From NCBI GenBank assembly GCA_903813345.2, contig CAIIXF020000010.1, forward strand, positions 31,118,828 to 31,182,827: DNA of 64,000 bases, given 5' to 3'. Below are positions 6,199 through 31,843 of this stretch, piece after piece (position 1 is the first letter of the stretch; every line of letters begins with the position of its first letter). A program made the translations under genes and the position numbers. Under the pieces are notes generated by a model. That model was not told the origin of the DNA. It made no database searches and saw nothing but the letters and a program-made list of their open reading frames with translations. The stretch comes from Owenia fusiformis (Eukaryota; Annelida; Polychaeta; Sabellida; Oweniidae).

Positions 6199-7479
6199 CT
6201 TTGGAGTAAATCCTAATAACTTATGTGCCATGAAATGGTATATGTATTCCCCAAATTATTATGAACTAGTGTATAAAAGTCTTGCAAAGGGTAGTTTAAC
6301 AGTATACGTTAAGTTAGATGAATTTAACAGTATTATACAGATATGTTAAATGTTGTGAGATACTTTAATACAATCGTCGTTTTAAATAGGTGTCATGTTC
6401 TCACTTCTAAATACTGATTAGATAATGTAGGTCAGTATGACATTACAAGTAATTGTTTAGAGTCACTTAAACTTGAACAAAACAAAACGAAACGTATCTT
6501 GATATGCTATTAACATTATCAACATTTGACATAAACGTAATTGTTTTTCAAATATCTAATAAACGTGATGTGTTATATGCGTGAATTACAGGGTGGACAC
6601 AAAAATATACAAATCTAAGTTGGGAAGAGTCTACGTAGATGTGGAGAATTTTTTTGCACTCTTAATTGATAATTTTTTCTTCGCGCGTCGATGGCATTAA
6701 ACCCTAGATATTTGGGCTATGTGTTTAAATTCTTTTACAAATGAAGGCTGTTATTTTGACACTCGTCTTGCGGACGTTGACACTGATTATGAATGTTGAA
6801 TACTGTATCTACAACTATTTGTGATATCCAGATTATTAGATGTATATATTATAGATATTCTAAGCATGTATTGAAATTACTTCTATATGATTGCCTTGGT
6901 CTTCTTGTAGTTTTCTCGGTCAGATAACAGTACCTGAAAATACAATGATGCATCATTCAGCTGAGTAAAAGGGACTTATAAAAACAAACATATTGGTCAA
7001 CGTAGTTGCTTCAATCAATTAAGTTAACTTTGAAAGTGTGCTACCCCATAACTCAAAAATATTGCCATATGCCGTCAAAACTGGTTGGTCTTAGGGGGCT
7101 GTCTTGCACCTTGCATTTAAAAGAAGATAATAAAAATCGTCTAAGATAAAAGTCTTAGAGGCAGTTTTGAAGAATTTTGGTCCACCTAGTATTCACTTTT
7201 ATCTCATAATATAAGTGTGTCGAGTTTTAAAGTTTTAATCTATGTTTGAGATTGATGAGTCGATGAAGTCAGTAGTTATGTAATACTATGAAAAGGACGA
7301 GGATGAAGCCGCTTATATTCATCAACTGGCTCTTTATTGCATTTATGGTTCCATTGGCTCAAGCAGATCTAGAAGGTAAGCAAATTTTGATCTACTACAC
7401 ATAACTAGACTTTGGACAAGATTCATGAGCCATTTCATAAAGCTGAACAAACATGATTTATATTTGCTAAATATAAATA
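6199..7479 (+). repeat. Segmental duplication block B, left copy (promoter plus signal-peptide exon)
   Basis: About 1.28 kb matches 30562-31843 in the same orientation at a constant offset of 24364. By eye I find only about five substitutions, including near 6203, 6224, 6742 and 6841. The block contains a TATA-like element, the putative 5' UTR, the first coding exon and about 100 bases of intron 1. The near-identity implies recent duplication or gene conversion, much younger than block A. Confidence 0.95.
6977..6984 (+). promoter_or_regulatory. TATA-like box upstream of the SBP gene
   Basis: TATAAAAA lies 311 bases upstream of the ATG at 7288. An identical element sits at the same distance in the duplicate. 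Promoter function is inferred from position and sequence only. Confidence 0.35.
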
Positions 7480-10400
7480 GGCGAGTAGAACCAATGGTCA
7501 AATGTGCCAGGAAAGTACTTTTTAAAATACATCATGGGGAAAAGGACAAATGAGGTACCGTTGTAAAGCTAAGGACTTCGGCTTTTCAAATCCACCTGTA
7601 CCTAAGTTTGAATTTGGGGCGAAAATTGCAAAAACATCCGTTTCCATAGCAACCATTTAAAATACAATCAATAAATCAGAAATCACCTTTCGGATCGCAG
7701 AACACCTGTTATCTGTCCAATTCAAATGATAGATATATCAAAATGAAGCTATTGATGTCCCCTTGTTTACAAACAAGAAAATATGCAAATTAGCTAATTT
7801 TCATATCTATTATGACATCATAAGTAGATTTTTTAACCGAATTTGAGACATTTTGGAGATGTATCTGATATAATAATGAAGCATTATTTGTAATTGAAAA
7901 TTATTGTTAGATATTACTTATAATTCATTATTTGAGTTAGAAATAAATTGACTGCAAGGTTTGAAAAGTGTTAAGAATCAAAATCATAGGATATCCTATA
8001 AATATTATACTTACATCAACAATATCACTGCTGTTTATCACAATAATATTGAAAATATTTTATTGCTCAATTCTATGTCTGAAGATATACAAAATAGTGT
8101 ACCTTATTATATTATCATATAGTCCTGCAAGATTTCAACTTATGATGGACATTTTGGATGCATGCTGTATTTGTAACTTTTCAGTATATTTAAGGGGTTC
8201 TGAATTCAAATCTGCCGGATGTAATTTGAGTACTGCGGCATTAATCTGTACAGCCATTTCAATATGTGCATCCAAGAGTCCATTTTTCTCAATTTTTTTT
8301 CAATTCAATGCATTTATATTTGCTAATTTTAAAGGAAACATATTGATCTAATCAATTTAATTGTGATTTTCCATGATATCTTATATATTTTCCAATTTGT
8401 TCCAGGAATTCCAGGTTCAAACAGTTAAAATAATTAAAGGTATTTGATTTTTTCCCTTGTTTTCATCATATTTTGGCCAGTTTTTGGCTTCCAGTATAAA
8501 ACTGCGCATTGTTTAAATATAGCATTAGGTGCACTTATAATGATTGGATTATAACTAAAACTTCCAAATATCATTAATAGAATATGAACAGCAGATTAAT
8601 ACCATAGGTAACATATTTGGTCTATACAAAATGACATTACTCCAAATTATAGATGTACTATGGTACCCCTACCCCATTCTTCTAAAATAGTGATTTTCAA
8701 GAAAAATAAACATATTAATGATACATAATACTAATTGGGGTAACTAGGGTGCCACACTGCCACTATAGGGTGCTAGAGAACTAATTGGGGTAACAAGGAT
8801 GCTACTAGAGAACCAATTGGGGTAACTAAGGTGCTATAGGGACTTACTAGAGAACCCATTTGGGTAACAAGGGTTGTACTAGGGGCTACTAGAGAACCGA
8901 TTTGGGGTAACTAGGGTGTCACTAGGGGCTACAAGAGAACCAATTAGGGTAATTAGAGTGCCACTAGGGGGTACTAGAGACCCATTTGGGGAAAGTATGG
9001 TCCCACTAGGTACTACTAGAGAATTAATTGGGGTAACTAGTATGCTATGGGGGCCTACTAGAGAACCTATTCAGGTAACAAGGGTGCCACTAGGGGCTAC
9101 TAGAAAAACAAGCGGGGCAATCAGGGTGCCATTAGGGGCTACTCGAGAACCAATTAGAGTAACCAGGGCGCAATTAGAAGCTGCTAGAAACCAATTAGGG
9201 CAACTAGGGAGCTAATAGGGGCTACTAGAGAACCAATTGAGAAACAAGGGTGTTACTAGAGAACTAATGGGGGCAACTAGGGTGCTACTAGAGAACCAAT
9301 TGGGGTAACTACGGTGCTACTAGAGAACCAATTGGGGTAACTAGGGTGCTACTAGAGGCCACTAGAGAACCAATTGGGGCAACTAGGGTGTTACAAGAGA
9401 ACCAATGGGGACAACTAGGGTGCTACTAGAGAACCAATTATGGTAACTAGGGTGCTACTAGAGGCCACAAGAGAACCAATTTGGGTAACTAGGGTGCTAC
9501 TGGGGCCTATTTGAGAACCAATTAGGGTAACTATGGTGCCACTAGGGGGTACTAGATAACCAATTGGGGTTAACTAGAGCAATACCGGGGGCAACTAGAA
9601 AACCGTTTGTGGTAGTTAGGGTGCTATTAGGGGCAACAAGAGAACCAATTGGATAAATAGGGGTTTACTAGGGGCTACTAGAGAACGAATTGGGAAACAA
9701 GGGTGTTACCAGAGAACCAATGGAGGCAACTAGGGTGCTACTAGAGAACCAATTGGGGTATCTAGGGTGCTACTAGAGGCTACTAGAGAACCAATTTGGG
9801 TCAACTAGGGTGCTATTGGGGCCTATTAGAGAACCAATTAGGGTAACTATGGTGCCACTAGGGGGTATTAGAGGCTACTAGAGAACCAATTTGGGTACCT
9901 ATGGTGCTATTGGGGCCTATTAGAGAACCAATTAGAGTAACTATGGTGCCACTAGGGGGTACTGGAGGCTACTAGAGAACCAATTTAGGTAACTAGGGTG
10001 CTACTGGGCCTATTAGAGAACCAATTAGGGTAACTATGGTGCCACTAGGAGGTACTAGAGAACCAATTGGGGTTAACTAGAGCAATACCGGGGGCAACTA
10101 GAGAACCGATTGGGGCAGTTAGGGTGCTATCAGGGGCAACAAGAGAACAAATTGGATAACTAGGGGTCTACTAGGTGTAACTAGAGAACAAATTGGGAAA
10201 CAAGGGTGTTACTAGAGAACCAATGGGGGCAACTAGGGTACTACTAGAGACCAATTGGGGTAACTAGAGTGCTACTAGAGGCTACTAGAGAACCAATTGG
10301 GGCAACTAGGGTGCTACTAGAGGCTACTAAAGAACCAATTGGGGTAACTAGGATGCTATTGGGGCCTTCTAGAGAACCAATAGGGGTAACTAGGGTGCCA

Positions 10401-13400
10401 TTAGGGGGTACTACAGAACCAATTGGGGTTAACTAGAGCAATACCAGGGGCAACTAGAGAACCAATTTGGGTAGTTAGGGTGCTATTAGGGGCAACAAGA
10501 GAACCAATTGAATAACTAGCTATGATCAGATTGCCATTTACTGACAAAAATCATCTTTAACGATGTAATGATTAATAAGAGAATGAGCTTATTAACATTT
10601 TTAATGCAGCCTATAGGTAATCTTTTTCCACTTCTTCTGGTGTCAATAAAGTTAAAATTGGTCGGGAAACAAAAATATATTAACCAAATTGCATTAACAA
10701 AATTCTAAAGACAGGGTTTGCATTCCATTTCCATAGCAATGGATGCAAATCTGGAAGAAATGGCTATCAGATTCTTGAATAAGATGTCTCTAGCTTTAAT
10801 TTGCTCTTCGTACCTCTTCAGAATTTAAATTCCTTATTTTCACATACAGGTAGTTCCTATTCTCGTACATTATGTATATTAGCACTATTCGTACAACTTG
10901 TATTATTGTACCTACCACAAGCTCAGCTTCAAACACCTCTCTTTTGTTTACCATAAATAGCATTAAGAAATATTAAAACCCCAAAAAGAGTTTGAATTTT
11001 AGACAGATTGCTCAGCAAAAACATTTTGGTGCTATATAAACCATTGCCCCTAGCAACAGTGTTTATGTTAAAGATGTTAAGATATCAAAATTCTTATTCA
11101 GTGCCTCAAACTCTATAAAGTAAACCCTGTTGCTAAACTGTAACGTTACATTTCTTTCCCACGGAGGCCTTTGAGGGATAACAAAACTGGACTATATAAG
11201 ATTCAGGGCAAATCGATCAACTAGTATTTGAGTTAGTAAAATTACATTTTTCATGAAAATTAGTGGCCATTTTATATTAAGCTGCCATATTGAAAATCCC
11301 TTCTCGAGTAGAGGTTCCACACATATAGGTTATTAGGCTATGAAATCTGAATCAAATCCGTTAACTGGTATTTGGGATCATTACCTATCATAAGGCTTGG
11401 ATATACATTCTGGAATTAGGCTAGGGGTATCATAATTCAACCATAAATGCCTTAATATAATTTTGGCACAAATAACTTGTAAACTATAGTATTTATTTAA
11501 TTGTTTTACTTTATATATCATATTCAGTTGCATTTATGTTATGCTCACAATCATAAAATGGGACATGGATTTTCAAGTATTTTTTAATTAACATTTAAAA
11601 ATACCCCTAGTACCACAGTGCATATATAATACGTGATTCTTTGATACAGAATGGCATTGTATTTTCATAGGTATTTTACTTCAAAATTAGGGCAGATATC
11701 ACAGAAATTTGAACAAATATAATTTTATTTAGACCAAGCATGATAACTATAGATGCTCATCGATCATTATATTACATATGACCATTTGAGACACACAAGT
11801 AAAAAAGAAATGTTTATCATTAATATGTGTATTTTTCTTGAAAATCACTATTATATGAAGTAATGTCATTTTGAAAAGACCAAATATATGTTACATATCG
11901 TATTAATTTGCTGTTCATATTCCATTTATGATATTTGGAAGTTTTAGTAGCCAGTCACTATAACTACACTAATTCTTTAATAAAGACAACATGGAATTGT
12001 ATCCATGTAGATATTTTACTTCAAATAATGGTAGGTACCACATAAATTTGACCAAATGTAATTATATCTAGACAAAGCATGATATCTATGGATGCTTATT
12101 GATCAAATACACACTACCTATCACATGTGAGCATTTTAGAGATAAAGATAAAAAGAGTTACATATGTATATTGATATTTGTATTTTTCTTGACAATCAAT
12201 ATTTTATAAAAATGGGGTAGGGATTCCATACTTTATTTAATACATGTAGTATATTATGAAGTAATATCATTTTGGAGAGACTACAGATGTAACCTATAAT
12301 ATTTATCTGCTGTTTGCACTTCATTTATTATACTTGGGAGTTTTAGTAATAATTCAGTCACGATAAATACATTTATTCCTTGGTAAAGTGAATATTGAAT
12401 CTTATTTGTATAGTTATTTACTTCAAAAATAGGGTAGGTACCACATAAATATGACCAAATGTAATTATATTTAGACAAATTATGATAACTATGGATGCTA
12501 ATTGATCATTACACATTAAATATTACATATGAGCATTATAAACACCAACCAATATGATAAAAGGTATTATCTATCATTATATGTGTACTTTTCTTGAAAA
12601 TCACTATTTTAGAAGAATGGGGTAGGGGTACCATACTAAATTTATAATATGGAGTAATGTCATTTTGTATAGACCAAATATGTTACCTATGGTATTAATC
12701 TGCTGTTCATATTCCATTAATGATATTTGGAAGTTTTACTTATAATCCAATCATTACAGGTGCACCTATTGCTATATTAAAACAATGCGCAGATTTATGC
12801 TGGAAGCCAAAAACTGGCCAAAATATGATGAAAACAAGGGAAAAAATCAAATGGACCCTGGGATGCATATATTGAAAAGGCTGTACAGATTAATGCCGCA
12901 AAGTACTCAAATTGCATTCGGCAGATTTGAATTCAGGACACTCTAAATATACTGAAAAGTTACAATATAGCACGCATCCAAAATTTCCATCATTCTTAAA
13001 AATATGGCAATATATTGCAGGACTAATATGCAGATCACTATTATGCATATTAACATACATGTCTTATATGTCTTATGTAAATAATGCTAGAATAGCAGAA
13101 ATATGGAAATACATTAATATTGTATGTATACATTTGAAATACAATTTGTTTATTCTTTATAAACATATGATTTATCTTAAAATGGATTTTGAATAAAATT
13201 AATAGTTCTAGTACCAATATGATATTATTTAAAAAATATTAACTTCACACGGTAAATGAATACATTTTGGTTTTAGTGCATTCTGCCCTCAATTCCTTTA
13301 ACCTAGAAATTTTTCTGGACATTAGTTACCAATAAGGATACTTTTCATACCCATTTATAAGTAGACTTTTCAAATACATTTAAAAGCTAATACTCAAATT

Positions 13401-16362
13401 ATTTCTAGCATCAATAATGATATTTAAATAGTAGTAATCCTACCAGTTTATTTATAATTATAACTAATATGTTATCATTAATATCTAAAACATCTCAAAA
13501 TTACCTAAACATTGGTTGAAAAAAATATAATTATGACATCACAATAAATATGCAAATGAGCAAATAGACATATCTTGTTAATTATGAACAGGGGGCCTCA
13601 ATAGCTCCAGTTTGGTATATATATCATTAAAATCGGACCAAGAACATATGTACTATGTTCAAAAATATGATTTCTGATTAATTGATTAAATTTTAAATGT
13701 TGCCATGGAAACGGCTGTTTTTAGCATTTTTCAAAGCTTGCAGCCAATTTATTTCGAACTCAAATGATGAAATTTAGTTATGTCTACCAATACATTTTCA
13801 ATTACAACTAATGTGCTATAATAATATCAAATATATCACCAAAATATCTCAAAATCAGCTCAAGAATCTACTTATGACGTCATAATAGATATGCTAATTA
13901 GCTAATGTGCATATTTTCTTGTCTATAAAGAAGGGGACATCAATAGCTTCATTTTGATATATGTATCATTAGAATTGGACAGATAACAGGCGTTCTATGA
14001 TCCGAAAGGTGATTTCTGATTTATTGATTATATTTTAAATGGTTGCTATGGAAACGGGTGTTTTTGCAATTTTTGCCCCAAATTCAAACTTAGGTACAGG
14101 TGGATTCGAAATGCTGAGGTTCTTAGCTTTACAACGATACCTCATTTGTCCTTTTCCCCTTCGTGTATATTAATCACAATTTTCAGACCTCCATTCTACT
14201 AGCAGCGAGTGAGTGTCCGTGTGGTTGATTTTGAAAAGAACATGGAACGTAGACTGAGACTTGATACATGTATATGTTTTGCCGGTATCGAGTGTAGCTG
14301 TTGAATATATTCACATCATATACGTTTTTTAAGTGTTCTTTTTCTGTTGCCCATCGATGATATCATCCATCTTGTTGTAAGGAAATCTTTCCATTTTGAA
14401 TTTTCGTCTGACCACTTCCTGTTGACGCACTAAACGAAAAGGATCGACAAATTGTTGTTTTCAGAGATGAGGCTACAGGAAAAGGCATTGGCTTCCTCCA
14501 TGATGCAGTGAGAGAAGTGTGTAAAGTTGCTGGCAAGAATTGTGGAATTGTGTACTCAATGTCAAATCTAGAGAATTGCTATAACCCTGAAAAACTGTCC
14601 GGAAAGGGTAAGTGACATAAAGTTTAAGACCAGAATGTACAAAGCAACACTTGTAACGTATAATCTGTCATAAGAGAGTAAGTGCAAAACAAGACACGAT
14701 GCCCTGCCCATGGCAAACCCTATGGCATGGGCAATGGCATCATCTGTGCCATAATCTTGAGGACAATATTTCGAGTCAAATCCTTATTAAAATGAAAAGG
14801 AAAGCCAAGAATATGAATAAGCTATAACGCGCTATTCAATCAGGAGTCTTTTTTGAGGGAGTGTGCACAACCTATACAACAGAAATATCTTTATTTTCTT
14901 TTGATATATTTTCTCATCCTCACATAATCAGTTTCACAAAAGTAAAGTGTCCCTATTTAAAAATCATCACAATTATAGGATTGAATGACAGACACTTTGG
15001 AGCATGCCTTGGATGGACTGCCACGATGCCAAGATGGAATGTCTTTAACTTCTCTTCACCCATGCTAGATATCACTCCTGCCCAGATCTACGTCAAGTCG
15101 GATTCTGGTATCTCTTCTGTTGATGCCCTTGAAGGAAAAACGTTTGGTAACTATAAATTGAATACTTTGTCAAACATATAAGTGCAAACTGGAGAAAGTG
15201 ATATCAATAGCATTAATGATCTACAGAGTATAGCTTTTATTGGTAGGGGTGGGGTCTCCGTATGTGCCTCCCAGGCTCAGGGAGGCTCACAGATGTCTCT
15301 CCCCATTGGAGCCCATGTTAGGGAGGGTAATATGAAAAATCGTGTCCCTCCCCATAGGACTCCATGTTATAGGTGTGTCAGAACTCTCGTTTCTGTAACT
15401 ACTCTGGATGATGGAAAGGTGTGGACAAATATATAATACTTCCAAACATTATTTTTATTTTTACAAAGGATCCATACAGTTTTTCAACTTTGCCATGCGA
15501 TTCCATTATTCTATATTTTTGTAATGCTTATTTCAAAATATAGAGGTCATCGATTGTGAAAATATAGATTATGGCTCCAAAAGTGTTTGAATCGTACCTT
15601 TTGGCTCTAATAAACCAAATATCAACTAAATATATATACATGTAATGAGGTATGAAAATTGGAATCCATTTCAAACTCTTGACTACAAAATATTTGTGTA
15701 CCTGCATAATTCACATTGAAGAAGATGATCCTAAAGTAAGTTGGCTTTTGCCAAAAGTTGGACAACTCTAAGCCAAGTGCATTATCACTTCTGTCTACGA
15801 ACTTTTTCAGATCAATTAGAGTTGTTGTTTAATTGAACCCGATGCATTTCGGCATTTATTTTTAATGTTTATTAAGGTTGATGCCGTGGTACTACCCGAC
15901 GGTCATGAATTAGCACGGGAAAAGAACCTCATGCCTTTGGTTACAGCCGTGGATTGCTCATATGGAGGCGCTACGGGTCTTATGCACAGGAAGGACGTTG
16001 ACACTACATGGTTCAGTGAGGCTCTGCGAGAGATTAAAGAGGGCTTTGCATATTCAGATTTATGCAGGAAGTGGAGTAAGTATTTTTGGTTCTTGTTAGC
16101 TCATATATATACAAGTATTGAAAAGGGACAAGCGACGTCTCAGTTAGATCAAAAAGCACAATATGGAGCATTTATAGAACATATATGAAATATATATATA
16201 GTCTCAACATTTATTATTTTATAACAGTCGAGTGTGAGGGCATCCAAAAGTTAGATCAATGGTTCAAATTTATGAATCGTACAATGATTGAGCGTGTATT
16301 ATGCACATCGTATATGTAATCAATTCATTCCAATTTCAGATGTGCAGAACTGTTGCCAGTAA
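7288..16362 (+). CDS. Secreted periplasmic-binding-protein-like protein (SBP family 3 / amino-acid-binding fold)
   Basis: Proposed exons are 7288-7375, 14187-14208 (a 22-nt microexon), 14465-14607, 14979-15146, 15183-15418, 15877-16075 and 16340-16362, giving about 292 aa. Phases agree at every junction. Residues 1-26 form a signal peptide ending LAQA. The mature part has the family-3 pattern: TGKGIGFLHDAV (substrate-lobe start), LGWTATMPRWNVFNFSSP, DALEGKTF followed by VQTGES, DDGK joined to VDAVVLP, and a C-terminal LCRKW. No membrane segment is seen, so it is probably secreted and binds an amino acid or similar small ligand. Bacterial homologues feed ABC importers; no importer partner is encoded nearby. 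Weak points are the 36-base intron 15147-15182, the weak GTGTGG donor at 15419, and about 35 extra residues in exon 5. A decaying gene is possible. Intron 1 is 6.8 kb and holds a foldback element. Confidence 0.72.
8738..10520. repeat. Degenerate minisatellite
   Basis: About 1.8 kb of head-to-tail variants of a unit containing GAGAACCAATTGGGGTAAC and TAGGGTGCTACTAGAGG, roughly 30-45 bases per unit, with higher-order blocks of about 400 bases (for example 9480-9640 against 10010-10160). An open frame at 8916-9215 is only a by-product of the repeat period. Confidence 0.95.
11490..12780. repeat. Tandem 350-400 base repeats in the foldback element
   Basis: Three diverged copies share CTTGAAAATCACTAT, TAATGTCATTTTG, TCTGCTGTTCATATTCC and GATATTTGGAAGTTTTA. 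They are anchored near 11838, 12188 and 12592. The last copy is part of the right inverted arm, and the same sequence occurs once, inverted, in the left arm near 8545-8710. Confidence 0.75.
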
Positions 16363-16787
16363 ATGGAGCCACCGTCAAAAAGAGAAATCAAAAAGGGACA
16401 ATTGGATGAAAAAGAGAGAAATTGAATTGTTCGCTACAGTATTAGTATCAAGAAAAAAAACAATTTGTACAAAATCCAAACTGACAAAATGTTACCTTTA
16501 GAAATTAATTAACTAACCAATATTTTAAGATATGAATGCTTATAATGTCAAAATATTATTTCATCCAGGTTAGCACCTGATGTGATTTTAGAAGATTTCT
16601 TATAAGGTGATATTTCAAAAGTATACATGGACAAAATGAAACTTCACTGTGGAACTTCCCATACTGTCGAATCCATCGTTTATATCACCCCATCCTGTCA
16701 CACCTATCCTGTCCACCTTCCACAATACAGCATTGTGAATTATGTAAAATATAGTATTTGGATTGAATTGATACTTGCATTATGAAG

Positions 16788-16793
16788 AATAAA
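16788..16793 (+). terminator. Polyadenylation signal AATAAA of the SBP gene
   Basis: This AATAAA lies 426 bases after the proposed SBP stop codon, on the same strand, before a TA microsatellite. Confidence 0.45.
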
Positions 16794-16822
16794 CGTTTAG
16801 GCATTTTACACTAGTTTTATGT

Positions 16823-18343: not shown

Positions 18344-20390
18344 ATGGTTGCATTTAAAGTGGTAAGATTTGCGAAGTTGCTACTTTTGGTGAGTCACGTT
18401 GTAGAAGGTTCCAAACTGAACAAATTGCATGGAGTTAGCCACGTTGGTATTACAACTGAGGATTTAGATATTTCTACACGCTTCTACACTGATATTCTGG
18501 GTGGAAAGTTACTCAGCCAAATTTCAGGTAAACCATAGCTACATTTATTCTTCGTACTTTAGGTAAGTTCACTAGAATGCTTAAATGGCTAATTAACTTG
18601 AGTGTGTGCCAATTTGGTTTGATGTACTAGCACTAGTTACAAGTGAATATACAATTTATCTTGATTTGTTCTATCTGTCAAATTAACGTGAACAATGATA
18701 AAAGGTAAAAATATCGGTTTCGGATATTGGGGGTTCCTATTTCTGATGATGACTACATTAGTTGTGTTTTTTATGTGTTTTTTATGCCTTTTGTTCTTTT
18801 ACCTTTCGTCACTTGTGCTATTTTTATGTTTCCAGAGCATGGTCTCTTTGGTGATAATATCTACCAGGGGATGTTTGCTAAAGAATTAAAGGACGCTGAA
18901 GAGAAAGGAGTCAACCCCGAGTCTTTGGGGGTTCCTGATATCTCTAAAAATGGGAATTACCAGGTAATTTCTCCAAATAATCTCATTTCTTTTGATCCTC
19001 TATTAGCAGTGATTTATCCAAGGGATAATAACTGAATTTAATCAGTTGCTAAGATAAATATACAATTGATTTAACAACTAAATAACTATAAGCATATTGA
19101 AGTAAAAAAGGAGCGTTTCTAAATCAATCAGAGGTAAACATTTTACTTAAGCTTGACTGCGTTAATTTTTATTCATAGGTACGCTGGAATTGGGTTTTAT
19201 TTGACAATTTGATGGTCCAACTCCTCAACTTTTCTCCACGCTCAAAGGCTGATATCAGATCTGAAGATTACGATGATCAGGAAATGGTGCGCAAGTCCTC
19301 ACCTGCATATATTGCAGCGCCACATTTGGCATTTTGGGTTCAAGATGACACTGATCTTAGAGAGTATGTTATGGAGCTAGAAAGAAGGTCAAATGCAGCT
19401 GGGTTTGAGAAAATAAAATGCAGTCGTTTGACGGAAATTGAAAATGAAGAGGACAGATATCGTGTACCAATTGAAGCTTTTGCCAGTGTCTATGATGGTG
19501 AGGACTCTATGGGAGGTGGAGGACAAGGTTGGGTGTACTGTAAAGGTCCAAATGGTGAACAAATCGAATTTATAAAATTTGCCAAGTCAAGTGGTGATAA
19601 AATACGAGATGCATTTTGCGCCCGTAAGTCATTAACGACAAAGATATATCCTGCCTATAAAGACAATAAGTACAAAAGAAATGTTGGATTTCCTGGGCAA
19701 CTTTATGGACTTCATCATATCGGAATACGTACCTCTAGTTTGGATGAGTCTATTGATTTTTTCTCAGGCATACTAGGGGGAACATTAATGGAGGAACTCA
19801 AAGGTGATCATTTCTTTGGCTCGGCTTTACAGAATGCACTCTTCCAAACAGAAATGATCAAAGCAAGACAAACCAATGCAAATTATGATGACCTTGGAAT
19901 CGGCGATTTTGTCAAATCTGACTTAGAACTAAGTCTGAGGTTTGTCTTATTTGATAACTTTATTTTGGAGCAATTGATGTATGCTAGAAAGGGTGACGAA
20001 ACTAAAGGATATAACCCTCGCCATGAAAAAAGCTCTCCTGCACTCATTAACAATATGCAAATTGGTCTACAACTCCACAATGATGTTAAAATGGATGACT
20101 TTATAGATAATGTGCTGAAGAAATCGAAATCGAAATTTGGTAAAGTTATTGCTAACCCCATTGTTGATGATCCGAAACTTAATGGCTATAAATTTGCATT
20201 TGTGAAAGGACCAATGGGAGAACAGCTTGTATTCAGTCAATTCACGGGTAAAATGGCCGATATAATCAAATCAGAAATGCTAGCATATGGGTCACTTAGT
20301 ACCGCCTATGAGGAAACCAACCCATGGACTTGGGAAGGATTTAAGGAACCCTGTTCTGAAGCTGCAGATACAGGTCATACAGAACTATAA
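18344..20390 (+). CDS. Secreted double VOC (glyoxalase/dioxygenase-fold) protein
   Basis: Exons are 18344-18527, 18836-18963 and 19179-20390 (phases 1 and 0 agree), giving 507 aa. Residues 1-22 are a signal peptide. The protein then has two full VOC domains, each of two beta-alpha-beta-beta-beta halves. Half 1 has GVSHVGITTEDLD with His33. Half 2 has IAAPHLAFWVQDD (His153) and GPNGEQIEF (Glu231/Glu234). Half 3 has YGLHHIGIRTSSLD (His283/284). Half 4 ends GPMGEQLVF (Glu452). FDNLMVQLLNF in the first domain matches FDNFILEQLMY in the second, showing internal duplication. His and Glu at these places are the usual VOC metal ligands, so a metal-dependent enzyme is possible, but the substrate is unknown. 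The frame is intact. The ATG is followed directly by the signal peptide. A partial copy of exon 2 lies at 26441. Confidence 0.9.
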
Positions 20391-20938: not shown

Positions 20939-21551
20939 CAGGGTGTCAAATAAGTCCCGCCCCCCCCCCTGCTACAGCTAAAACCTTAACAGAAGGTACC
21001 TAGTGTGATATACCATTGGAAAGATCATCCAAAGTTATGTTAACTCACCAACTCTCAAGTATTTTGGATGAAATTTACCTATATTTTTATGATGTCTTTT
21101 AAAATTAACGTGCCCTCCTTTAAGTAGCTTTTTTGCGTCAAAATGACAAGGATATGACCTCAGAAATACATCAAAAAGTTAATCTTATTCACATTCCACT
21201 TGTTACAAAAAGGTTTTCACCACTTTCCTTGCGCCTCTATTTTCTACACATCTAACCCTATCCAGAAATAGGTTAAATTCATCGCCATAAACATATTTAG
21301 TCATATTTTGGTCCTGTGACCTTTCTTATACACGATTCTTAAAATCGTGCCAAATACGCCAAATTGCCATGTTTCTAGGCATATGGTCACCTCAATTGAT
21401 ACTATGTAAAAATTTCTGAGATTGATTGACATGTGTCAGATATATGCCAATCAACGTAACTTTGGAAGACCTTTCCAATGATATATCACACTTGGTACCA
21501 AATATCTTGGTTTTGGCTGTAGAGGGGGGACGGGACTTATTTGACACCCTG
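20939..21551. mobile_element. 613-base MITE with TA target duplication and CAGGGTGTC ends
   Basis: The termini CAGGGTGTCAAATAAGTCCC and GGGACTTATTTGACACCCTG are inverted repeats. They continue inward imperfectly (ATATACCATTGGAAAGATC against CCTTTCCAATGATATATC). TA lies directly outside both ends. This is the signature of Tc1/mariner-type non-autonomous elements. There is no coding capacity. Confidence 0.85.
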
Positions 21552-21628
21552 TATACTCAATTTGTGTATTGATCTTAGTGAATATTTTAAGGATTCAGCT
21601 GCATGCAATTTTCTTAATCGTGACTAGT

Positions 21629-22487
21629 GCTAATTGCTCAGATACGAGTAGGTAGATACCAGTTTCGCCACCAGGTGACTAATTCGAGGAAATAACACGG
21701 GAGGGTATTACAAAGTTCCCTTAAACTTGAAAATTCATCCGTTTTAGTGGTTCACCTTTCATATATCCTTATGTGTCTGATAATATAAATATATATATTG
21801 AAATATGTCCAGTAAACGAAAATATTATCTGTCCAATACAATAAATATTTTACGTTGTGATTAATCAGCATGGAGTGAGTCTATGGAGAACCTCCCCGAC
21901 CTAGATATTACATTTTCAAAGAAAATTAAATTTCAAAAATTGATAAACTCTTCAAAACCATATTTCTAGATGTAATTTTACATGTAGATTCTAAATTTGA
22001 CATCTGTTTGACTGAACTTTTAATTTTTACTAAGTGGCGATCGGTAGCACCCTTTTGCTAATTTGATTTTCATGAAATAACTGTATTAGTTGTGCCGACA
22101 TGTTGTAACTGAGGTAGAGGGGCATAATCACAATTACCCATGTTACAGAAAAAGCACCGAACGCCGAACATCATCCACACACAAGTTGGAGACTATAACA
22201 ATATGTCACAATATATACAACACTGGTATTTTAATTTGCCTTATACCGTATCTCAGATAAATTGACCTACGCGTTATATATTCGCAGTTTGTGTGACTTT
22301 TGGGTCGGGGGGATTCCCCATAGACCTCATGTTGTAAAATCACAAAAAGTGAAATATCTTTTCTTGTGTACATAAGGGTAATATGAAAAGTGAACTTCTA
22401 AAACTGATGAATATTCAGGTTTAAGGGAATTTTGTAATACCCTGCCATGTTATTTCCCAAATTAGCCACTCGCATCTGAGTAATTGA
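21629..22487. mobile_element. Foldback/MITE downstream of the C-type lectin gene
   Basis: Terminal sequence CTAATTGCTCAGATACGAGT is inverted at the right end (ACTCGCATCTGAGTAATTG). The arms about 21629-21905 and 22300-22487 pair over GGAAATAACA, GGTATTACAAA and CCCTTAAACTTGAA. A fragment of the ATGTCACC repeat family sits inside near 22120-22215. Confidence 0.75.
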
Positions 22488-22572
22488 ATAGATAATTTAT
22501 TTAGTCAATAAGTCAATCGATTTTAATTATACAAATATAGTGCAAGTAGAGTTCTTAGCCAGTGTGAATATT

Positions 22573-22578
22573 TTTATT
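22573..22578 (-). terminator. Polyadenylation signal of the C-type lectin gene
   Basis: AATAAA on the minus strand, about 86 bases after the stop codon. Confidence 0.55.
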
Positions 22579-22663
22579 CAATTTTGATTTCACAAATAAG
22601 AGCAGTTTCAAATGGCATTCACTTAATTTTGAAAATCATTTTAAGTTCTTACACTACGCAGTT

Positions 22664-23179
22664 CTATTGGATTTTCATTTCACAAATGTAGTACAATTTA
22701 AAGTCGCAATTCCAATTGTGAAAAAGAAAGTCGTCGCCACCATAGAGTATAACACACTTCTGAACATCAAGAGCATTCGGCTGGCCAGGTCTCCACGGGG
22801 CAAACGAGATTGGCTTTGTCTTCCACGATGGGCCACCTATCCACTGCCAGCCGTCGTTAAACAGTGTACCACCGACAAAAAATGTATCTCCGTCTACGTT
22901 GTTACCATTTCCAACAAAACCTCTTCCTTTAATCTCTCTCCTCAGATAATCGAGCTCTGCTTGCGTTTCTATAGCGGCAAGATTTGCATCCATCATTGAA
23001 CAAACTGAGAGAGCATCGTACCACGTGATCTTATCGGATGTGACGAAGTTATAGCAGGAACCCAGATCGGGGTTGTAAATAAAATTCAAAGGACAAACTG
23101 ATCTCCGGTTGCAAGTATATTGAACTCCTTGCACGGTACCAAGTGCAATGACGATCACACAGAGCAAAACTCTTGTCAT
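22664..23179 (-). CDS. Secreted single-domain C-type lectin-like protein
   Basis: A 171-residue uninterrupted frame with a signal peptide (1-18) followed by one long-form CTLD. Cysteines are placed as in the family: C29/C42 as the extra N-terminal pair, C60/C166 and C142/C158 as the two core disulfides. The motif WYDALSVC and the end WNCDFKLYYICE are typical. The usual EPN or QPD sugar motif is replaced by QPN (133-135), and WND by WNC, so calcium-dependent sugar binding is uncertain. The coding part lies in one exon. CCAG ends just upstream of 23193 on the minus strand, after a pyrimidine run, suggesting a splice acceptor and an upstream non-coding exon. It is most likely an extracellular recognition or matrix protein. 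Confidence 0.92.
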   Translation of the reverse strand: MTRVLLCVIVIALGTVQGVQYTCNRRSVCPLNFIYNPDLGSCYNFVTSDKITWYDALSVCSMMDANLAAIETQAELDYLRREIKGRGFVGNGNNVDGDTFFVGGTLFNDGWQWIGGPSWKTKPISFAPWRPGQPNALDVQKCVILYGGDDFLFHNWNCDFKLYYICEMKIQ

Positions 23180-23193
23180 TTTGGAATATTACC

Positions 23194-23805
23194 TGGAAAA
23201 ACATATGAAATCATTTGTCCACAACAATGCACTCTCTGTATAATGGGTACGTTGTCAATCGTCATCTAATAAACACTTGCATCTACAATTATCGCTTGAT
23301 TATTTCATGATGTTATCTAATAGCGTATCCGTTATCGTAAGAAAATGGCGAAATATCTGGGTGAAAATTACGACAAGACTTATCTTTCATCATGATTGCA
23401 CGAGATAGAATTGCTCGTCATGTGACAAAAAGTGATTTCTATAAGCTTTTTAAGTGTTAAACAATGTCAGTACTGATCCAATCTCGCTATAGAGTCGCAT
23501 TTATCATACAGGGTGTGCCAAAAAGGTAACCCAAATAAATGTTGATTACTCCGTCATCAAGCATGATTCGAAATTTGACACAATTTAACCTTGTGCAATA
23601 TCATTTCATTCTATATAAATTGCATTTGTCTATTTTTAATGGTCATGATTTTATGGCCATTTTACAAAACATTCTCAAAATACAAAAACATGCCAAAATC
23701 ACTCACTTTTTACATAAGCTTTGTGTGAGCGTGTAGTCAGAACAACTTCATCGATGCATTTAAATTAGCCATCAGAGACGAGACCCGTATTTTAAGGAAA
23801 CTTAA
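23194..23805. other. Upstream region of the lectin gene, no gene seen
   Basis: This should contain the promoter and first non-coding exon of the minus-strand lectin gene. CAGGGTGTGCCAAAAAGG at about 23510 resembles a mariner-type terminal repeat, but no partner end was found. Confidence 0.4.
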
Positions 23806-26345
23806 ATATGCACGTAGTTGCGAATATTAGACGTAAAGATTGCAAATATCAACAAATTTCATTGAGTAGGATATTACATTCGAAATCACAACTTTCAAAT
23901 TATTTTTTTTAACCGAGGATTGTAAGAACTTGAAACATGTTGTGAGTTTTTCAAACGGCATATCCTCATTCACGTTCTTTGAAAAGGATGAATCCATTTG
24001 AATACATGGATTTTCTTCATTATTCTTCAAAACCGAAAGTTCATTCTGTATGTAAACAAGAAAAAATACATTTATGGTTGGTTCATAATGAAAAATGACG
24101 AATAACATATATCTTTTGAAGTAGGGGTATACAGGGACACAGTGGAAAATCAGAAATTTAGGTCATATCCCAAAGATTGCTTCACCAATATGTAACAGAA
24201 CATCAAAATTATCATTTACATGTTTGCTGATAGGTTTATTGAAAATAATTAACCAGAGGTTTACTTCAATTGTGGCACCATTCTTAGTAAATATTGATGA
24301 ACATACGAATATCGAATGTTGACTAAGTTACTTGTCTTGACCGTTATATCAAAAGGCACGCAGTTTGGAAAATCTAGGTTAATGTAGGCAGGCAGTTTGT
24401 CAATGATTCAAACTACGCAGGCATGCAGTTTGAGTAGCACATCTAGTATTATGAGTACATCTCGAATCACTTCTCAACGAATCGTTTTCGAAAAAATGTT
24501 GAGTTTGAGATAATTTGAGTACTGCTCACACGCAATAAATAAAAAGAGTTTTGATCCATTTTATATATGGATGGTTGGATGACTGTTAATACGCTCACCT
24601 AAACACATCGAATTCGTGCGTTGACGTTCACACTAAAGCTTGAATGATATCATATCGCATTATCATATTTTTTATTGCTCGTTTTTAATGCAATAAAAAA
24701 AATATAAACGTATATTACAATAGGCACCACATTTTGTTCAAAATACAATGTGAAGTCTACTGTAAGTATCAATAAGCATTGTATTCCCTACCCTGAATGT
24801 GACAATTTTAGTTACACTTGGTGATGATCATGCTTTGCATGTTATGTCTAACCTATACTAATATTATTACTGGTTTTTCATTAAGATTTATCCAACCAAA
24901 TTAAAGGCCCAAAAGAAAAACAATTCTTTAGTTTGTCACATTTCAACCTGGGTTTTCTTATTTTCTTTCTTTGACAGAGATGACGGTAAAATTGACACGC
25001 TTGTGTTTACTAGTACTCAATATCTTAAAAAATGAATGCAGTTTCATATGTTAAAGGCAGAATGAGATATAACATATGATCTTGAAGAGTACTCTTGACA
25101 AAACTTGTTTCAATTTAGAATATTTTGGAATAATACCAGCCTTATCATGTCTATTTTCTCAAAATTGTATACTGTATTTGAGGAAAACTCACGTTTTTAC
25201 AATAATGGATATTCTTAATTATAAATATGGTTAGCATTTTTATTAGTTCGGACAATTTACATTATTTTTCCCCAGTTTGGCACTTTGAATCCTTAATGCC
25301 TTAATATCTTTACCTAATTTGTAACATATTTGAGATCGTAAGAAATGTAAACACGAGAAAATACATTCATGGTTGTAAGTCATTCTGATACTCATCACAT
25401 CTTTTTGTCTTCAACCAGAATAAAGCTAATAGAAGCAGGCCATGATTTCTCATGGTGCTTGTAAGTATCAATAAAGCTGATAGCATCACATTTCATATTG
25501 GAACCAAACAACAAATTGAGAAATTTACTTTTCATTAAGGAACTCGCGTTTGCTCAGCTATAGCTACAAGTATTGCCTTTTCAAAGTGAAAATAATCTTC
25601 ATCTATTGAAAGAGATGGAAGAATCTTATTTTCCCCTAAAAGGGAGTCACCAAAGTCTGTTAAATACGATAAAAGCGCATTTCGTAATTAGATAATTTGA
25701 ACATATTTCTTTTAATATTTTTATTAACCTCAATACTTTTTATGTTTTCCTTATATCAGATATAATGGTGAATGAAAAAAAACGAATACATACATACCTC
25801 AATGTTGAACGTGGGTATAATATATCTCGTATCACAACGAAGAGTACCTTTACGATTGACTCGGGATCCAACGTCGGAGTTTTATATTCATAACACAATA
25901 GCCAGACAGACAATCACTGGGATCAACTGGAAACGAGGACAGTTTGTACTCGTTTCAATATGGCTGCACGTCTGAAACCAGAGAACTTTTGTTTTCTCGA
26001 TTTTAACACTAATATTCTTCAAACTCAAACTTAAGTTTTCGTTACAGGTAGTTCATGAGTTCCGATTTCGAAATATGTTAGTTCTCAAAAATCACTAAAG
26101 GTTATTAGTTGGATACTTACAAATTGATTTAACCGCTTTGAAACAAGAAAAGGTCTTCCGTTTAGAAGCAGTGTGATACCAAAGTGAGCTGCCTTAACAG
26201 TAGGCATATCCTCATTTTACCGCAATTGAAGTCACAGTAAAATGTCTGCTTTTTTGAGTAAAGCGATCACGAAGAGCCAAACAATAAATTCAATCCCTCT
26301 TAAGACATCTACAATGCACTATCATAATGGAAATTTGACATAAAA
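23806..26345. repeat. Segmental duplication block A, right copy
   Basis: Colinear with 172-4125. It has an insertion at about 23850-24340 and lost most of the LINE-containing part (1341-1980 and 2100-3390 have no counterpart). Small insertions near 25020-25080 and 26040-26100 interrupt frames that are open in the left copy, which argues against coding function in either. Confidence 0.8.
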
Positions 26346-26440
26346 CATTTTAAATCATGTGACACACAATGGGAAATAATCAATATATTGGGGGCAATTT
26401 GTAATGTCCTTTCGGAACTGGTGCCCCTATATTTATGTTT

Positions 26441-27000
26441 ACAGAGCATGGTGTCTATGGTGACAATATCTACAATCACCCCGGAATAGCCTGACAACGG
26501 TAAAGTCGGATACCGTTGTCACAAATGTCGGACATAACCGTCGCTTCAATTAGATTTTCATGAACTGTATGTTTAATAGAGCACCTAGACTAAATTCCTT
26601 TGGAACAACAATCAATCAAAGTGTCTTTATATTCATTTTACAAATAATAATGTTCTACCATCGAAATAAAGTATTAAATTTAACCGATCAAAATGAGATA
26701 CGGGACAACGGACACTGTAATTACCAAATGCCGTTGTCTTTCTAAATTACTCAAATTCAGATTCCGTTGTCATTGACGATTTCGAAGACGCTATATTGTA
26801 GCGATTCGCGACCCAATTTTATCGAAAATGGGATTCCATATGATACATTATCACAAGAGCTTAATGCATGCACAGAATTAGCGACGATAAACAGTTGAAG
26901 CGACGGTTATGTCCGCCATTTGTGACAACGGTATCTGACTTTACCGTAGTCAGGCTATTCCGGTGAAACAATGGGATGCTTGCTAAAGAGCTGAATGACC
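26441..27000 (+). pseudogene. Broken copy of VOC exon 2, split by a MITE
   Basis: 26425-26476 matches the acceptor and start of VOC exon 2 (ATGTTTACAG then AGCATGGTGTCTATGGTGAC; the original at 18826 reads ATGTTTCCAG then AGCATGGTCTC). After the inserted element, 26966-27050 resumes with ATGGGATGCTTGCTAAAGAG, matching GGGGATGTTTGCTAAAGAA of the functional exon. Insertion and divergence destroy the frame. It shows that part of the VOC gene was duplicated too. Confidence 0.8.
26477..26965. mobile_element. 489-base MITE inserted in the VOC exon copy
   Basis: Terminal inverted repeats of about 75 bases: CACCCCGGAATAGCCTGAC on the left, GTCAGGCTATTCCGGTG on the right, continuing through CGGTAAAGTC and GACGGTTATGTCC. 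The flanks TCTACAAT (left) and AAACAAT (right) share ACAAT, a possible short target duplication. Confidence 0.85.
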
Positions 27001-27382
27001 CTCTTAGGCAATTCATAAGTCTTGAGTTGTTTGGAGTTGCCGTTATCTCTTACAAAACAAATCCAGAAAAGACCAGTCAAATCTTTATCAGGAGAGCTGT
27101 CAACACAACTGATAAGAAGTGTTCTAAAGCAGTCCCAGTGAAACACGATGCTATGTTTTGGTCTCCCAAGATGCTGCCTACTTGTAAATAAAATACAGTT
27201 TCCATTGTGCGATTTTATATGGTGAAATAAAAAATAATAAAACTTAAAATGTGTAACATATGTGGCACATATCAGGGTATGTGTCTTATCATATAATTTT
27301 GATATTATCGTTAATTTTTTATAAAGTGGAAATCTCATATATATGAGTTCTAAACATGAATTAAGGAGACTACAAGCATTTA
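27001..27382 (+). repeat. Terminal-exon-like sequence, duplicated at about 41700-42085
   Basis: An open frame reads to IFIRRAVNTTDKKCSKA and stops at 27191 with TAAATAAAA, so stop codon and polyadenylation signal overlap. The copy near 41710 begins similarly (IRRAVNTSDKKC) but soon stops. Similarity continues about 200 bases beyond the stop. It looks like the last exon and 3' UTR of a lost or rearranged gene; I do not recognise the protein. Confidence 0.5.
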
Positions 27383-27985
27383 CAAACGTAGAACCAAAAC
27401 AAAGAGTGTTAAGATCAGATTATTTTAGTGCGTTATGAATTTCTCCCAGTCCATTTTCCTATTTCTTCCCTTTTCATGCGTATTTTAACTGGCTGACATG
27501 TGAATAAAGTTACTTGGATAGAATTTAGTCTCATGTAAGGCATTCCTTTCTCAAATTTATCCAGTATCAGGGACACAAGTAATTGATCTACATTGACATT
27601 ATGTATAGCCTAAAAAGCCATCCAGCTTGGATGCTGCATATGCTGCAATACAATATATGATCTTTCTGTATAGTACAGTATTTTAGAATCATGTTGGATA
27701 AAACATTCATAACTTGGTAAGTTCAATTTACAGAAAGTTTGCTCTCCGAAGATTATTTAAACTGGTTTAAGCCGGATATTGCAGGAATTCTCTTCGATGA
27801 CGTATTAGATGAAAACGGGGAATACCCTTTAGGGAATTCTCTTCGATGACGTAGTTGATAAAACGGGGAATGCGCTTTATTATTATCCACCTATTCATCA
27901 TTGTCCGCCTTCCATAGGATTCTGTATTAAGGATATTTGAAAGCCCCCTTTCACGGTTTATTAAAATCGAGCTCCTGTGCGTGGT
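27383..27985. other. Gene-free stretch with a short tandem duplication
   Basis: GGGAATTCTCTTCGATGACG-type sequence with AAAACGGGGAAT occurs twice in tandem at about 27790-27870. Nothing else was recognised. Confidence 0.5.
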
Positions 27986-28225
27986 ACACTAGCTAGCAAC
28001 AAGCCGGCGCGGTTGACAACAGACGCTGTTACCCGACAAGTTTGACACATCGTTATTAGCGGTGTAAGTGCGCTTGGGTGAACTACTTTAGTTGAAAACG
28101 TATGGGCATCTAATTTGCAACGCATGGGCTCTTTGTTCTTTTTCGTGATACCTAAGGGGGATACTTATTATATTTTATGCAATGCACTTGCCCGCGGGTA
28201 CTTCAAAAACGCGGCCTAGATCATT
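27986..28225. repeat. Single-arm copy of the 31965-32380 palindromic repeat
   Basis: GACACATCGTTATTAGCGG, GGTGTAAGTGCGCTTGG and TCTTTGTTCTTTTTCGTGAT match the inverted arms in the intron at 31965-32380. Confidence 0.65.
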
Positions 28226-28353
28226 CCTGAGCAATAACTCGTTTTAACGATGAATACGTTACCAACTGCCAGCGTTAAACAGATTGTTCTTACAACAACA
28301 CGAATTTATGTTCCGTCCAATTAGCAACTGAGCAGATCAAGGGAAGAGACACA

Positions 28354-29480
28354 AATGCTTTTTATGCCAAAGGAACTAGTGCGTTCTCCATTATGATCTC
28401 CCCATGAAAAATGAAAAAAAATGTTCATCTGATTTTTCAAAATGTGTATACTGCTTTTATTATCACATTTATATGCACACTAGTATCTTGTTGACCTACA
28501 TTGAGCACTATATTGACGTATGGGCCACTTATTAGGGTCATAGAGGCATAGATTCCAAACCAGGAAGTATTTTTGTGTCTGTCAAAATCCATTTGCATCC
28601 TACACATCCATACATCCTATCCAAATATGTTATTAATTAATGAAACATAACAGTGTAATATTTGGATTTACAAAGTTATATGGCATTCCATAAGTGTAAA
28701 AGTGGCTTTTGAAGCATTTTTCTATGGCCATTTTGTAAGAAAAAATGATGAAAATTTGAAGTATGACCGTAACCGTCCGCTTAATATCTAATGTACATCT
28801 AATACAATACGTTACCGTCTATAGAATTCATACGTAGTCGTCTAACGACATTGCGTTTGAAACCTTATTATTTCCAATATGACCACGTTCCTGTTCTGGA
28901 TTTGTCATTTTATGGCTTGTTTATACACAGTTTACTTACTGTTATTAGTTTGAGTGGCCCCGAGGCACATATACTGAGAATGGACTAAAAAATATGAACT
29001 TGGACATCTCAGTCGGTAAGTTTACAGCTTATATTCCGCTTCTAGTAAACCACCTGGCAAATTTGACCAAGTCTTTATAACCATCCATATATACGTCACC
29101 GAATGGAACTGTGAATCTTTCCTACAGGCAAGAAAGAGGACACGCTGTCTCTCCCATCCGCCATTTTTTGTTATCGTTACCGCAAAATTGTGCAAATCGC
29201 CTTGTCGTAACCGTCATGCTATATTTAATTTGCAATCGATTCAGGGCATAGTGTATTAAGTCAATGGAGCACATGCAATGTCAAGTTAATACACCCTTGC
29301 TGAACTTAATGTCCTCAACCTCAGCCCATGCGGGTCCAAATGCTTAAATATTTTCCAAAGTATTATGTGACATAGTATTCTATACGTTACATATAAAAAT
29401 GGTTAATTTTGTTCATGCGGAAATCATAATGGAGAGCGCACTAGATCTTTTATGCCAAAAGAACTTAACAATACATGCAT
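28354..29480. mobile_element. 1.1-kb element with imperfect terminal inverted repeats
   Basis: TTTTATGCCAAAGGAACTAGTGCGTTCTCC near 28359-28388 is inverted near 29432-29462. Inside, 28390-28770 matches the reverse complement of 61430-61830, so at least one dispersed family is nested here. No protein was recognised. Confidence 0.55.
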
Positions 29481-30561
29481 AGTAATCAATTATTGCACAT
29501 AATTATTGTTTCCTATATCAATACAAACATACATAAAATGATGAGCAATTACATTGACCATACATGCAATATACCAATCAAGATGGAATCAATCCATCTT
29601 CCAATAAAACTAATTCCCGATGTACAGTAGCCATCTTACATAACTTTGGCATGGGGAATACTAACCAACCATGGTGTTCGCAGTTTGGACATTTGACTCA
29701 GTCTGCTGGTGACAACCCCCGAAAAGACGAGTCTGTATTTGAGCCAGGCCACAGGAAAAGGGGCCTTATCACAGATTTTTTTCAATATTCTGATTTTTTG
29801 TTTATCTTAGAAAGGACAAAGAGACCTTTCAAATGAGCCATGGCTTATGTCTTAACAATTTTTCCTTGCATATATAGACCAAAAAGTCGGATTTGAATTT
29901 AGCACATTTTCCTCTAAATCTTGGGCTCATTTGTGGCTCTGTAGCACAATTCTAATTTTTGTGATAAGACCGGTTTTCCTAGGGCCAGGCTCATTTATTG
30001 GAATGACTCGCACGAAGATACTGTATAAGTGGTATTTAATCCGAGTGGTTAATTTTCCGAATGGTCAAATTTCATCATTTTCCTAATTTTAATTTTCCTA
30101 ATGACAAGAAACCTCCCATTGGATAACATTATAAAGACAATATTTCCGACATTTAATTTTCCGAAGCTGGCAAAAATTAGGAAATAGGCAAATTAAATGA
30201 TTAGGCAAAATTACTTCTTATATATGTTAAGGGATGATGTCTTTGAAATTTGGGGGAAAGAACAAGGTAGAATGTTTGACAAGTGTTTTAAAAGGTTTTT
30301 AAAATCAGTTTATATTAAATGCTCAAAATGAATGTTTTTAGTAAGTTGTAATAATTGTTTTATCTTAACATGTACATTCGACGCACCTTTGCATTGCAGA
30401 GCGTGCCACTGTTTCAAAAGTGTAGATCGAAATAAATAAATAAATAAATAAATAAATAAATACAGTAATTGGTATATTTTCGGTATGTGCACAAACAATT
30501 ATGAGTCAAACATGTAAATGATAATTTAAAATGAGCAACTGAGCAGATCAAGGGACGGGAA
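29481..30561. other. Gene-free AT-rich stretch
   Basis: 29740-29990 contains a small inverted pair (GAGCCAGGCCACAGGAAAAG against TTTTCCTAGGGCCAGGCTC). 30030-30200 has repeated ATTTTCCTAAT/ATTTTCCGAA motifs. The motif GAGCAACTGAGCAGATCAAG at 30532 also occurs near 28327 and ends at the boundary of block B. Confidence 0.5.
30429..30462. repeat. AAAT microsatellite
   Basis: Eight or so uninterrupted AAAT (TAAA) units. Confidence 0.9.
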
Positions 30562-31843
30562 TGTTTGGGGTAAATCCTAATACCTTATATGCCATGAAAT
30601 GGTATATGTATTCCCCAAATTATTATGAACTAGTGTATAAAAGTCTTGCAAAGGGTAGTTTAACAGTATACGTTAAGTTAGATGAATTTAACAGTATTAT
30701 ACAGATATGTTAAATGTTGTGAGATACTTTAATACAATCGTCGTTTTAAATAGGTGTCATGTTCTCACTTCTAAATACTGATTAGATAATGTAGGTCAGT
30801 ATGACATTACAAGTAATTGTTTAGAGTCACTTAAACTTGAACAAAACAAAACGAAACGTATCTTGATATGCTATTAACATTATCAACATTTGACATAAAC
30901 GTAATTGTTTTTCAAATATCTAATAAACGTGATGTGTTATATGCGTGAATTACAGGGTGGACACAAAAATATACAAATCTAAGTTGGGAAGAGTCTACGT
31001 AGATGTGGAGAATTTTTTTGCACTCTTAATTGATAATTTTTTCTTCGCGCGTCGATGGCATTAAACCCTAGATATTTGGGCTATGTGTTTAAATTCTTTT
31101 ACGAATGAAGGCTGTTATTTTGACACTCGTCTTGCGGACGTTGACACTGATTATGAATGTTGAATACTGTATCTACAACTATTTGTGATATCCAGATTAT
31201 TAGATATATATATTATAGATATTCTAAGCATGTATTGAAATTACTTCTATATGATTGCCTTGGTCTTCTTGTAGTTTTCTCGGTCAGATAACAGTACCTG
31301 AAAATACAATGATGCATCATTCAGCTGAGTAAAAGGGACTTATAAAAACAAACATATTGGTCAACGTAGTTGCTTCAATCAATTAAGTTAACTTTGAAAG
31401 TGTGCTACCCCATAACTCAAAAATATTGCCATATGCCGTCAAAACTGGTTGGTCTTAGGGGGCTGTCTTGCACCTTGCATTTAAAAGAAGATAATAAAAA
31501 TCGTCTAAGATAAAAGTCTTAGAGGCAGTTTTGAAGAATTTTGGTCCACCTAGTATTCACTTTTATCTCATAATATAAGTGTGTCGAGTTTTAAAGTTTT
31601 AATCTATGTTTGAGATTGATGAGTCGATGAAGTCAGTAGTTATGTAATACTATGAAAAGGACGAGGATGAAGCCGCTTATATTCATCAACTGGCTCTTTA
31701 TTGCATTTATGGTTCCATTGGCTCAAGCAGATCTAGAAGGTAAGCAAATTTTGATCTACTACACATAACTAGACTTTGGACAAGATTCATGAGCCATTTC
31801 ATAAAGCTGAACAAACATGATTTATATTTGCTAAATATAAATA
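30562..31843 (+). repeat. Segmental duplication block B, right copy
   Basis: Nearly identical copy of 6199-7479 carrying the TATA-like box (31341-31348) and the whole signal-peptide exon 31652-31739 with its GTAAGC donor. Similarity ends at TAAATACATCAT. The left copy has about 50 extra bases there, followed by ACATCAT and the foldback element. Confidence 0.95.
31341..31348 (+). promoter_or_regulatory. TATA-like box of the duplicated promoter
   Basis: TATAAAAA, 311 bases before the ATG at 31652, identical in sequence and spacing to 6977-6984. Confidence 0.35.

Follow-up and report, generated by a model that had tools for sequence, protein, structure and literature searches.

Does one upstream region, with its signal-peptide exon, serve two unrelated secretory genes in the annelid Owenia fusiformis? 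The question is raised by two near-identical blocks in a 64,000-base stretch of DNA (hereafter the window; positions 31118828-31182827 of its contig, in a 498-Mb genome of 525 contigs). The left block stands before a solute-binding-protein (SBP) sequence and the right block before a lectin-like gene. The first-pass annotation of this DNA had attributed the arrangement to recent exon shuffling that placed two genes under one control region. We reject this account, since the block is the end of a larger tandem duplication, a complete SBP gene outside the window has a signal exon of its own, and the SBP copy inside the window is truncated. It is instead very probable that a tandem duplication running from SBP intron 2 to lectin-like intron 1 left the left block behind as an orphan 5' end.

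Two near-identical blocks and the lectin-like gene

The resemblance between the two blocks, already seen by the first-pass annotation, was confirmed by alignment. The alignment covers 1,284 bases and contains no gap; 1,278 positions are identical (99.5%), and the longest identical run is 637 bases. The six substitutions lie at left-block positions 6199, 6205, 6219, 6225, 6739 and 6842. Because four of them fall within the first 30 bases, the idea that the block edges are end-joining points was dropped. Immediately upstream, AATGATAATTTAAAAT is common to both blocks, followed on the right side by about 30 extra bases. The 88-base signal-peptide exon previously described in each block is also present as reported: it consists of MKRTRMKPLIFINWLFIAFMVPLAQADLE plus one base, ends in a phase-1 GTAAGC donor, and is identical in both copies. 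A search of the 498-Mb genome gave two full-length copies of the block among the matches listed (at least 18). The others listed (at least 16) are partial and represent dispersed repeats, two of them matching the first ~60 bases and 14 matching bases ~601-718.

As for the right block, its exon is part of a public gene model. P0004, a public Owenia fusiformis protein of 149 residues, joins the signal exon to VCTRGELG... in phase 1 at the acceptor at 32922, which is exactly the junction that had been predicted. The window matches P0004 at 29 of 29 residues over the signal exon, and at 90% and 99% over the lectin-like stretches. The published Owenia annotation is described as a merger of RNA-seq models, Augustus and PASA, with RNA-seq support for 99.29% of transcripts in the set as a whole (PMC9977687). 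P0004 can be read from the window DNA only by skipping 56 nt (33052-33107) with non-canonical CA...CG ends, and we count this fit against our preferred explanation. The protein ends just past five consecutive A residues at 33324-33328, after which cysteine-rich sequence carries on in another frame, and seven consecutive A residues lie at 33087-33093 in the coding region; taken together, these irregularities could reflect either errors in the sequence or genuine damage. The public model is short and contains a non-canonical gap, and we do not count it as a complete secreted protein.

The acceptor at 32922 had also been assigned to the first exon of a SUEL lectin. Its position and phase are as described, but Pfam does not recognise SUEL (PF02140) here, which is a weak test since the reading frame is broken. 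The sub-threshold Pfam match in this sequence is to Seadorna_Vp10 (E 0.012 and 0.039). Searching the genome for PF02140 gave 32 matches at E <=1, 14 of them over the cut-off and none on the window's contig, and a sequence search of solved structures returned chance-level matches alone (E 0.7 and 3.5). With a profile made from four pieces of the same genome, one of three window pieces outranks 900 shuffles (E 0.02), the others ranking 8 and 224, which is a weak hint of lectin kinship for that one piece. We therefore name the gene lectin-like and not SUEL.

A broken solute-binding copy at the edge of a probable tandem duplication

The 40 kb of sequence next to the window on its left side contain SBP1, a complete solute-binding-protein gene some 33 kb away, with its own signal-peptide-like start and a frame that is open and unbroken across six exons. 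Its paralogue P0001, which is on another chromosome and matches SBP_bac_3 (PF00497; 3.6e-13), shares 73-88% identity with SBP1 over five longer stretches. Four of these correspond to exons 3 to 6; there is also a match in exon 2 (14/16). These comparisons take tblastn rows with E <1, and DNA matches among the ~120 first listed.

The copy inside the window, SBP2, has neither exon 1 nor exon 2, is missing most of exon 5, and does not encode a complete SBP_bac_3 domain; Pfam gave no SBP match in its three single exons. The repeat fragment found in place of most of exon 5 recurs at -20236..-20075 and, inverted, at -25937..-25776. The first-pass annotation had the left exon continuing in phase into a solute-binding protein, and this was not confirmed. 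When the block exon is spliced directly to SBP2 exon 3 (14465), the join is out of frame. A path through a cryptic 22-base exon stays in frame across exons 3 and 4, for a total of 141 residues, and then meets a stop, since exons 4 and 6 are not compatible in frame and most of exon 5 is lost. SBP2 is broken in both splice paths tried. Since neither path gives a complete in-frame product, we speak of an orphan 5' end at the left block rather than of a chimeric gene. There is no SBP2 model among the four public proteins found, which is no evidence either way since SBP1, apparently intact, is absent from those four as well. Our search for literature on horizontal transfer of solute-binding proteins in annelids found none, and the 8 papers listed, out of 2,507, by a wider search were general ones.

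The blocks are the last of five collinear pairs of segments, which start in the left and right units at -32935/14203 (SBP), -16765/18276 (VOC), -4284/22369 (C-type lectin), 224/24340 (the non-coding segment R1) and 6196/30560 (block), in the same order in both copies. This chain consists of 22 rows, plus strand only, and left-unit coordinates in the chain table are one too high. The right-unit VOC copy is 91.9% identical to -16765..-14082, and the right-unit C-type lectin copy 90.4% to -4284..-3309. Of the two incomplete copies, that of SBP is truncated on its 5' side and that of the lectin-like gene on its 3' side; these truncated ends meet at the junction, with the complete SBP1 and the lectin-like gene outside. 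This is the shape expected of a tandem-duplication chimera, here with a right-hand parent that has frame problems of its own, and it suggests that the lectin-like gene is most likely the first owner of the signal exon. Two features count against our preferred explanation. The unit is discontinuous near the block, no homology having been found between 4144-6180 and 26356-30515, and there are ~75 filler bases at the junction. There, positions 7479 and 14203 are kept apart by 42 filler bases, a probable element of 6.65 kb and 29 further filler bases. In the rest of the 124-kb stretch, nothing matches the first filler over more than 17 bases.

Table 1. Coordinates of features at the locus. Negative values continue the window numbering leftward of base 1.
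Feature	Coordinates	Strand	Remarks
SBP1 exon 1	-33441..-33332		signal-peptide-like start
SBP1 exon 2	-33197..-33147		
SBP1 exon 3	-32675..-32533		
SBP1 exon 4	-32162..-31995		
SBP1 exon 5	-31214..-31081		
SBP1 exon 6	-28647..-28449		followed by short last exon
R1 (non-coding segment), left unit	224..4143	+	in pieces
Left block	6196..7479	+	very probably an orphaned copy of the 5' end of the lectin-like gene (upstream DNA, exon 1, first part of intron 1)
Signal-peptide exon, left copy	7288..7375	+	29 codons + 1 base; ATG at 7288
Filler	7480..7521	+	42 bases between left block and inserted element
Probable transposable element	7522..14173	.	TTAA at either end; terminal inverted repeats of 456 bases (88% alike); internal tandem array
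Cryptic exon, 22 bases	14187..14208	+	needed for in-phase path; straddles duplication breakpoint at ~14203
Duplicated SBP segment	14203..15243	+	98.8% to SBP1 -32935..-31898; start falls in SBP1 intron 2
SBP2 exon 3	14465..14607	+	phase-2 acceptor
SBP2 exon 4	14979..15146	+	
Repeat fragment	15242..15403	.	occupies place of most of SBP exon 5
SBP2 exon 6	15877..16075	+	
VOC/glyoxalase-domain gene, right unit	18344..20390	+	signal-peptide-like start; PF00903 in last exon, E 4.5e-5
C-type lectin gene, right unit	22667..23179	-	PF00059, E 6.6e-10
R1, right unit	24340..26355	+	
VOC exon fragment	26408..27040	+	interrupted by small inverted-repeat element; right limit placed by eye
Right block	30560..31843	+	5' end of the lectin-like gene (upstream DNA, exon 1, first part of intron 1); presumed original place
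Signal-peptide exon, lectin-like gene	31652..31739	+	P0004 residues 1-29 + 1 base; ATG at 31652
Small inverted-repeat element, probable	31943..32364	.	within intron 1 of lectin-like gene
Lectin-like coding region of P0004	32922..33336	+	match to public gene model

Age of the near-identical tracts and alternative readings

The duplicated segments differ markedly in their divergence. Over 20 of the 22 chain rows, which we term the interior, 534 of 8,044 sites differ (6.6%). In the two rows excluded from this sum, the block and the SBP stretch, the figure is 15 of 2,322 (0.65%; Fisher p 1.5e-41 versus the interior). Divergence within the interior is itself uneven: in stretches of more than 50 bases K2P lies between 0.036 and 0.13, and one 44-base stretch is identical. 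Constraint was considered as an explanation for the near-identity of the blocks and rejected, since the other young tract, which is mostly SBP intron sequence, has diverged similarly little. Both young tracts show an edge richer in differences. For the block, 4 of 30 sites differ at the left edge versus 2 of 1,254 beyond it (p 3.5e-6), and for the SBP tract there are 5 substitutions in 173 bases versus 4 in 868 (p 0.0085), or 7 versus 5 events when indels are included (p 0.0012). The tests on both tracts lean towards their result, as the edges were set after the differences had been seen. With edges chosen in this way, the near-identical tracts lie within more diverged paralogous sequence, as they would after ectopic gene conversion, and we think it probable that they reflect later conversion between the tandem copies.

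The sequence of events that we favour would thus be as follows. A tandem segmental duplication would have copied the DNA from SBP1 intron 2 through the VOC gene, the C-type lectin gene and non-coding DNA to lectin-like intron 1. At the new junction, the copied lectin-like 5' end, now the left block, would have faced the 5'-truncated SBP2, the right block staying on as the start of the lectin-like gene. A transposable element presumably landed at the junction, and SBP2 would have lost most of exon 5 afterwards. Later, gene conversion may have homogenised the copies over ~1.25 kb in the block and ~0.9 kb in the SBP segment, which would explain why these tracts look far younger than the rest. The left copy would yield no useful SBP product.

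A different age for the junction is a possible, clearly less likely alternative, which keeps the same duplication and the same orphan status. An array with old SBP-VOC-CTL copies would have undergone a new tandem duplication whose breakpoints fell within SBP intron 2 and lectin intron 1; old units would then have been lost by unequal crossing-over, leaving young tracts only beside the junction. Both young tracts do flank a single junction, and the block tract reaches its very edge; a conversion tract is not required to do so, and we count this against our preferred explanation. The stray VOC exon fragment at 26408-27040 also hints at more lost units. However, this history needs one duplication and two contractions, and the differences clustered in the first 173 bases by the SBP breakpoint look older than the remaining tract. 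On balance, gene conversion is favoured to a moderate degree over a recent junction with contractions.

The remaining readings are all improbable. It is very unlikely that the orphan 5' end is transcribed and that the exon made by the breakpoint leads to a secreted solute-binding N-lobe fragment of 141 residues, co-regulated with the lectin-like gene, the two control regions being kept identical by conversion. Recent exon shuffling, in which a promoter and signal exon came to lie before a second secretory gene and brought both genes under one control region, would fit the 99.5% identity of the blocks and the cryptic exon through which exons 3 and 4 can be read in frame. Against it, that exon straddles the breakpoint, the block belongs to a larger collinear duplication, and SBP2 is without exons 1 and 2 and most of exon 5, its frame ending at the exon 4/6 join. 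Complete secreted proteins are not encoded by both recipients, and we reject a promoter shared by two working genes as highly improbable. Equally hard to accept as the fragment reading is an assembly artefact, one block being left over from a second haplotype. The published Owenia assembly is described as long-read based and passed through purge_haplotigs (PMC9977687), and the assembly analysed here may be another one, but the divergence between the paired segments around the blocks is 6.6%, and each block lies between long flanks that are distinct from those of the other. Least probable is a mobile origin of the block, either as an element in its own right or as a piece of a gene inside such an element. 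The first 60 bases of the block and bases 601-718 do match dispersed repeats, but there are two full copies among the matches listed, the wider order is shared with the tandem duplication, and by eye the block ends lack terminal repeats and a target-site duplication. Both of these readings were rejected.

Related cases and implications

The tandem duplication that we favour has described counterparts. In Drosophila yakuba, tandem duplications that cross gene boundaries are reported to fuse the 5' end of a gene with the 3' portion of a second gene, with raised expression in 24 of 76 such chimeras (PMC5460883). The Owenia locus is similar in that the 5' end of one gene meets the 3' part of the other at the junction, the outer parental copies being intact. 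In contrast to the Drosophila chimeras described there, the Owenia duplication is 6.6% diverged, its 3' partner has lost an exon and the frame, and its junction contains a probable element. As for the young tracts, the mosaic divergence, with near-identical tracts within older paralogous DNA, is like that produced by ectopic gene conversion between linked duplicates (reviewed in PMC3924832), and it is unlike the cases described in that review in that one tract terminates at the duplication junction. Compared with SBP_bac_3 proteins, SBP1 shares the exons of P0001, whereas SBP2 is truncated and frame-broken. The locus therefore looks like a known kind of event, an ordinary duplication leftover with a frame-broken partner.

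The locus provides an annelid example of how a tandem duplication can strand an upstream region and a signal exon before another gene. It also illustrates that a phase-compatible pair of exons can suggest a new gene even though the downstream partner is broken. Finally, the young tracts within these old duplicates caution against dating a duplication from its most similar stretch alone.

Duplication junction and neighbouring reading frames

The probable transposable element at the duplication junction contains an internal tandem array at 8730-10519. To its right, the fragment of an exon of VOC, the glyoxalase-domain gene of the duplicated segment, hints at additional duplicate units that were lost or rearranged. 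Whereas the frames are open in the neighbouring VOC last exon and in the C-type lectin gene CTL, the lectin-like gene exhibits two apparent frame changes between 33087 and 33328, one where seven A stand in a row (33087-33093) and the other at a stretch of five A (33324-33328).

Other features of the window

The open reading frame with a sub-threshold Nucleotid_trans match is perhaps a glycosyltransferase-like gene.

Features in and beside the window (negative coordinates lie left of its first base)
Feature	Position	Strand	Details
Solute-binding protein family 3 locus	-33441..-28449		complete gene
Probable transposable element	7522-14173		6.65 kb; 456-base terminal inverted repeats, TTAA ends
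Solute-binding protein family 3 locus	14465-16075		broken copy
Stray VOC-gene exon fragment	26408-27040		interrupted by small inverted-repeat element
tRNA gene	38218-38291	minus	RF00005, 67.7 bits
Open reading frame	53810-54910		Nucleotid_trans (PF03407) match, sub-threshold, E 0.0027
Tandem array	61868-63335		~100-base units, copies about 90-96% alike

Solute-binding proteins in the genome

When P0001, a paralogue encoded on another chromosome, was used as a query against the genome assembly (G000), 48 matches, counted per exon, were found across chromosomes C1, C2, C3, C6, C7, and C10, the last of which carries the window. In the annelid Owenia fusiformis, bacterial-type solute-binding proteins of family 3 appear to be encoded by a gene family with multiple members.
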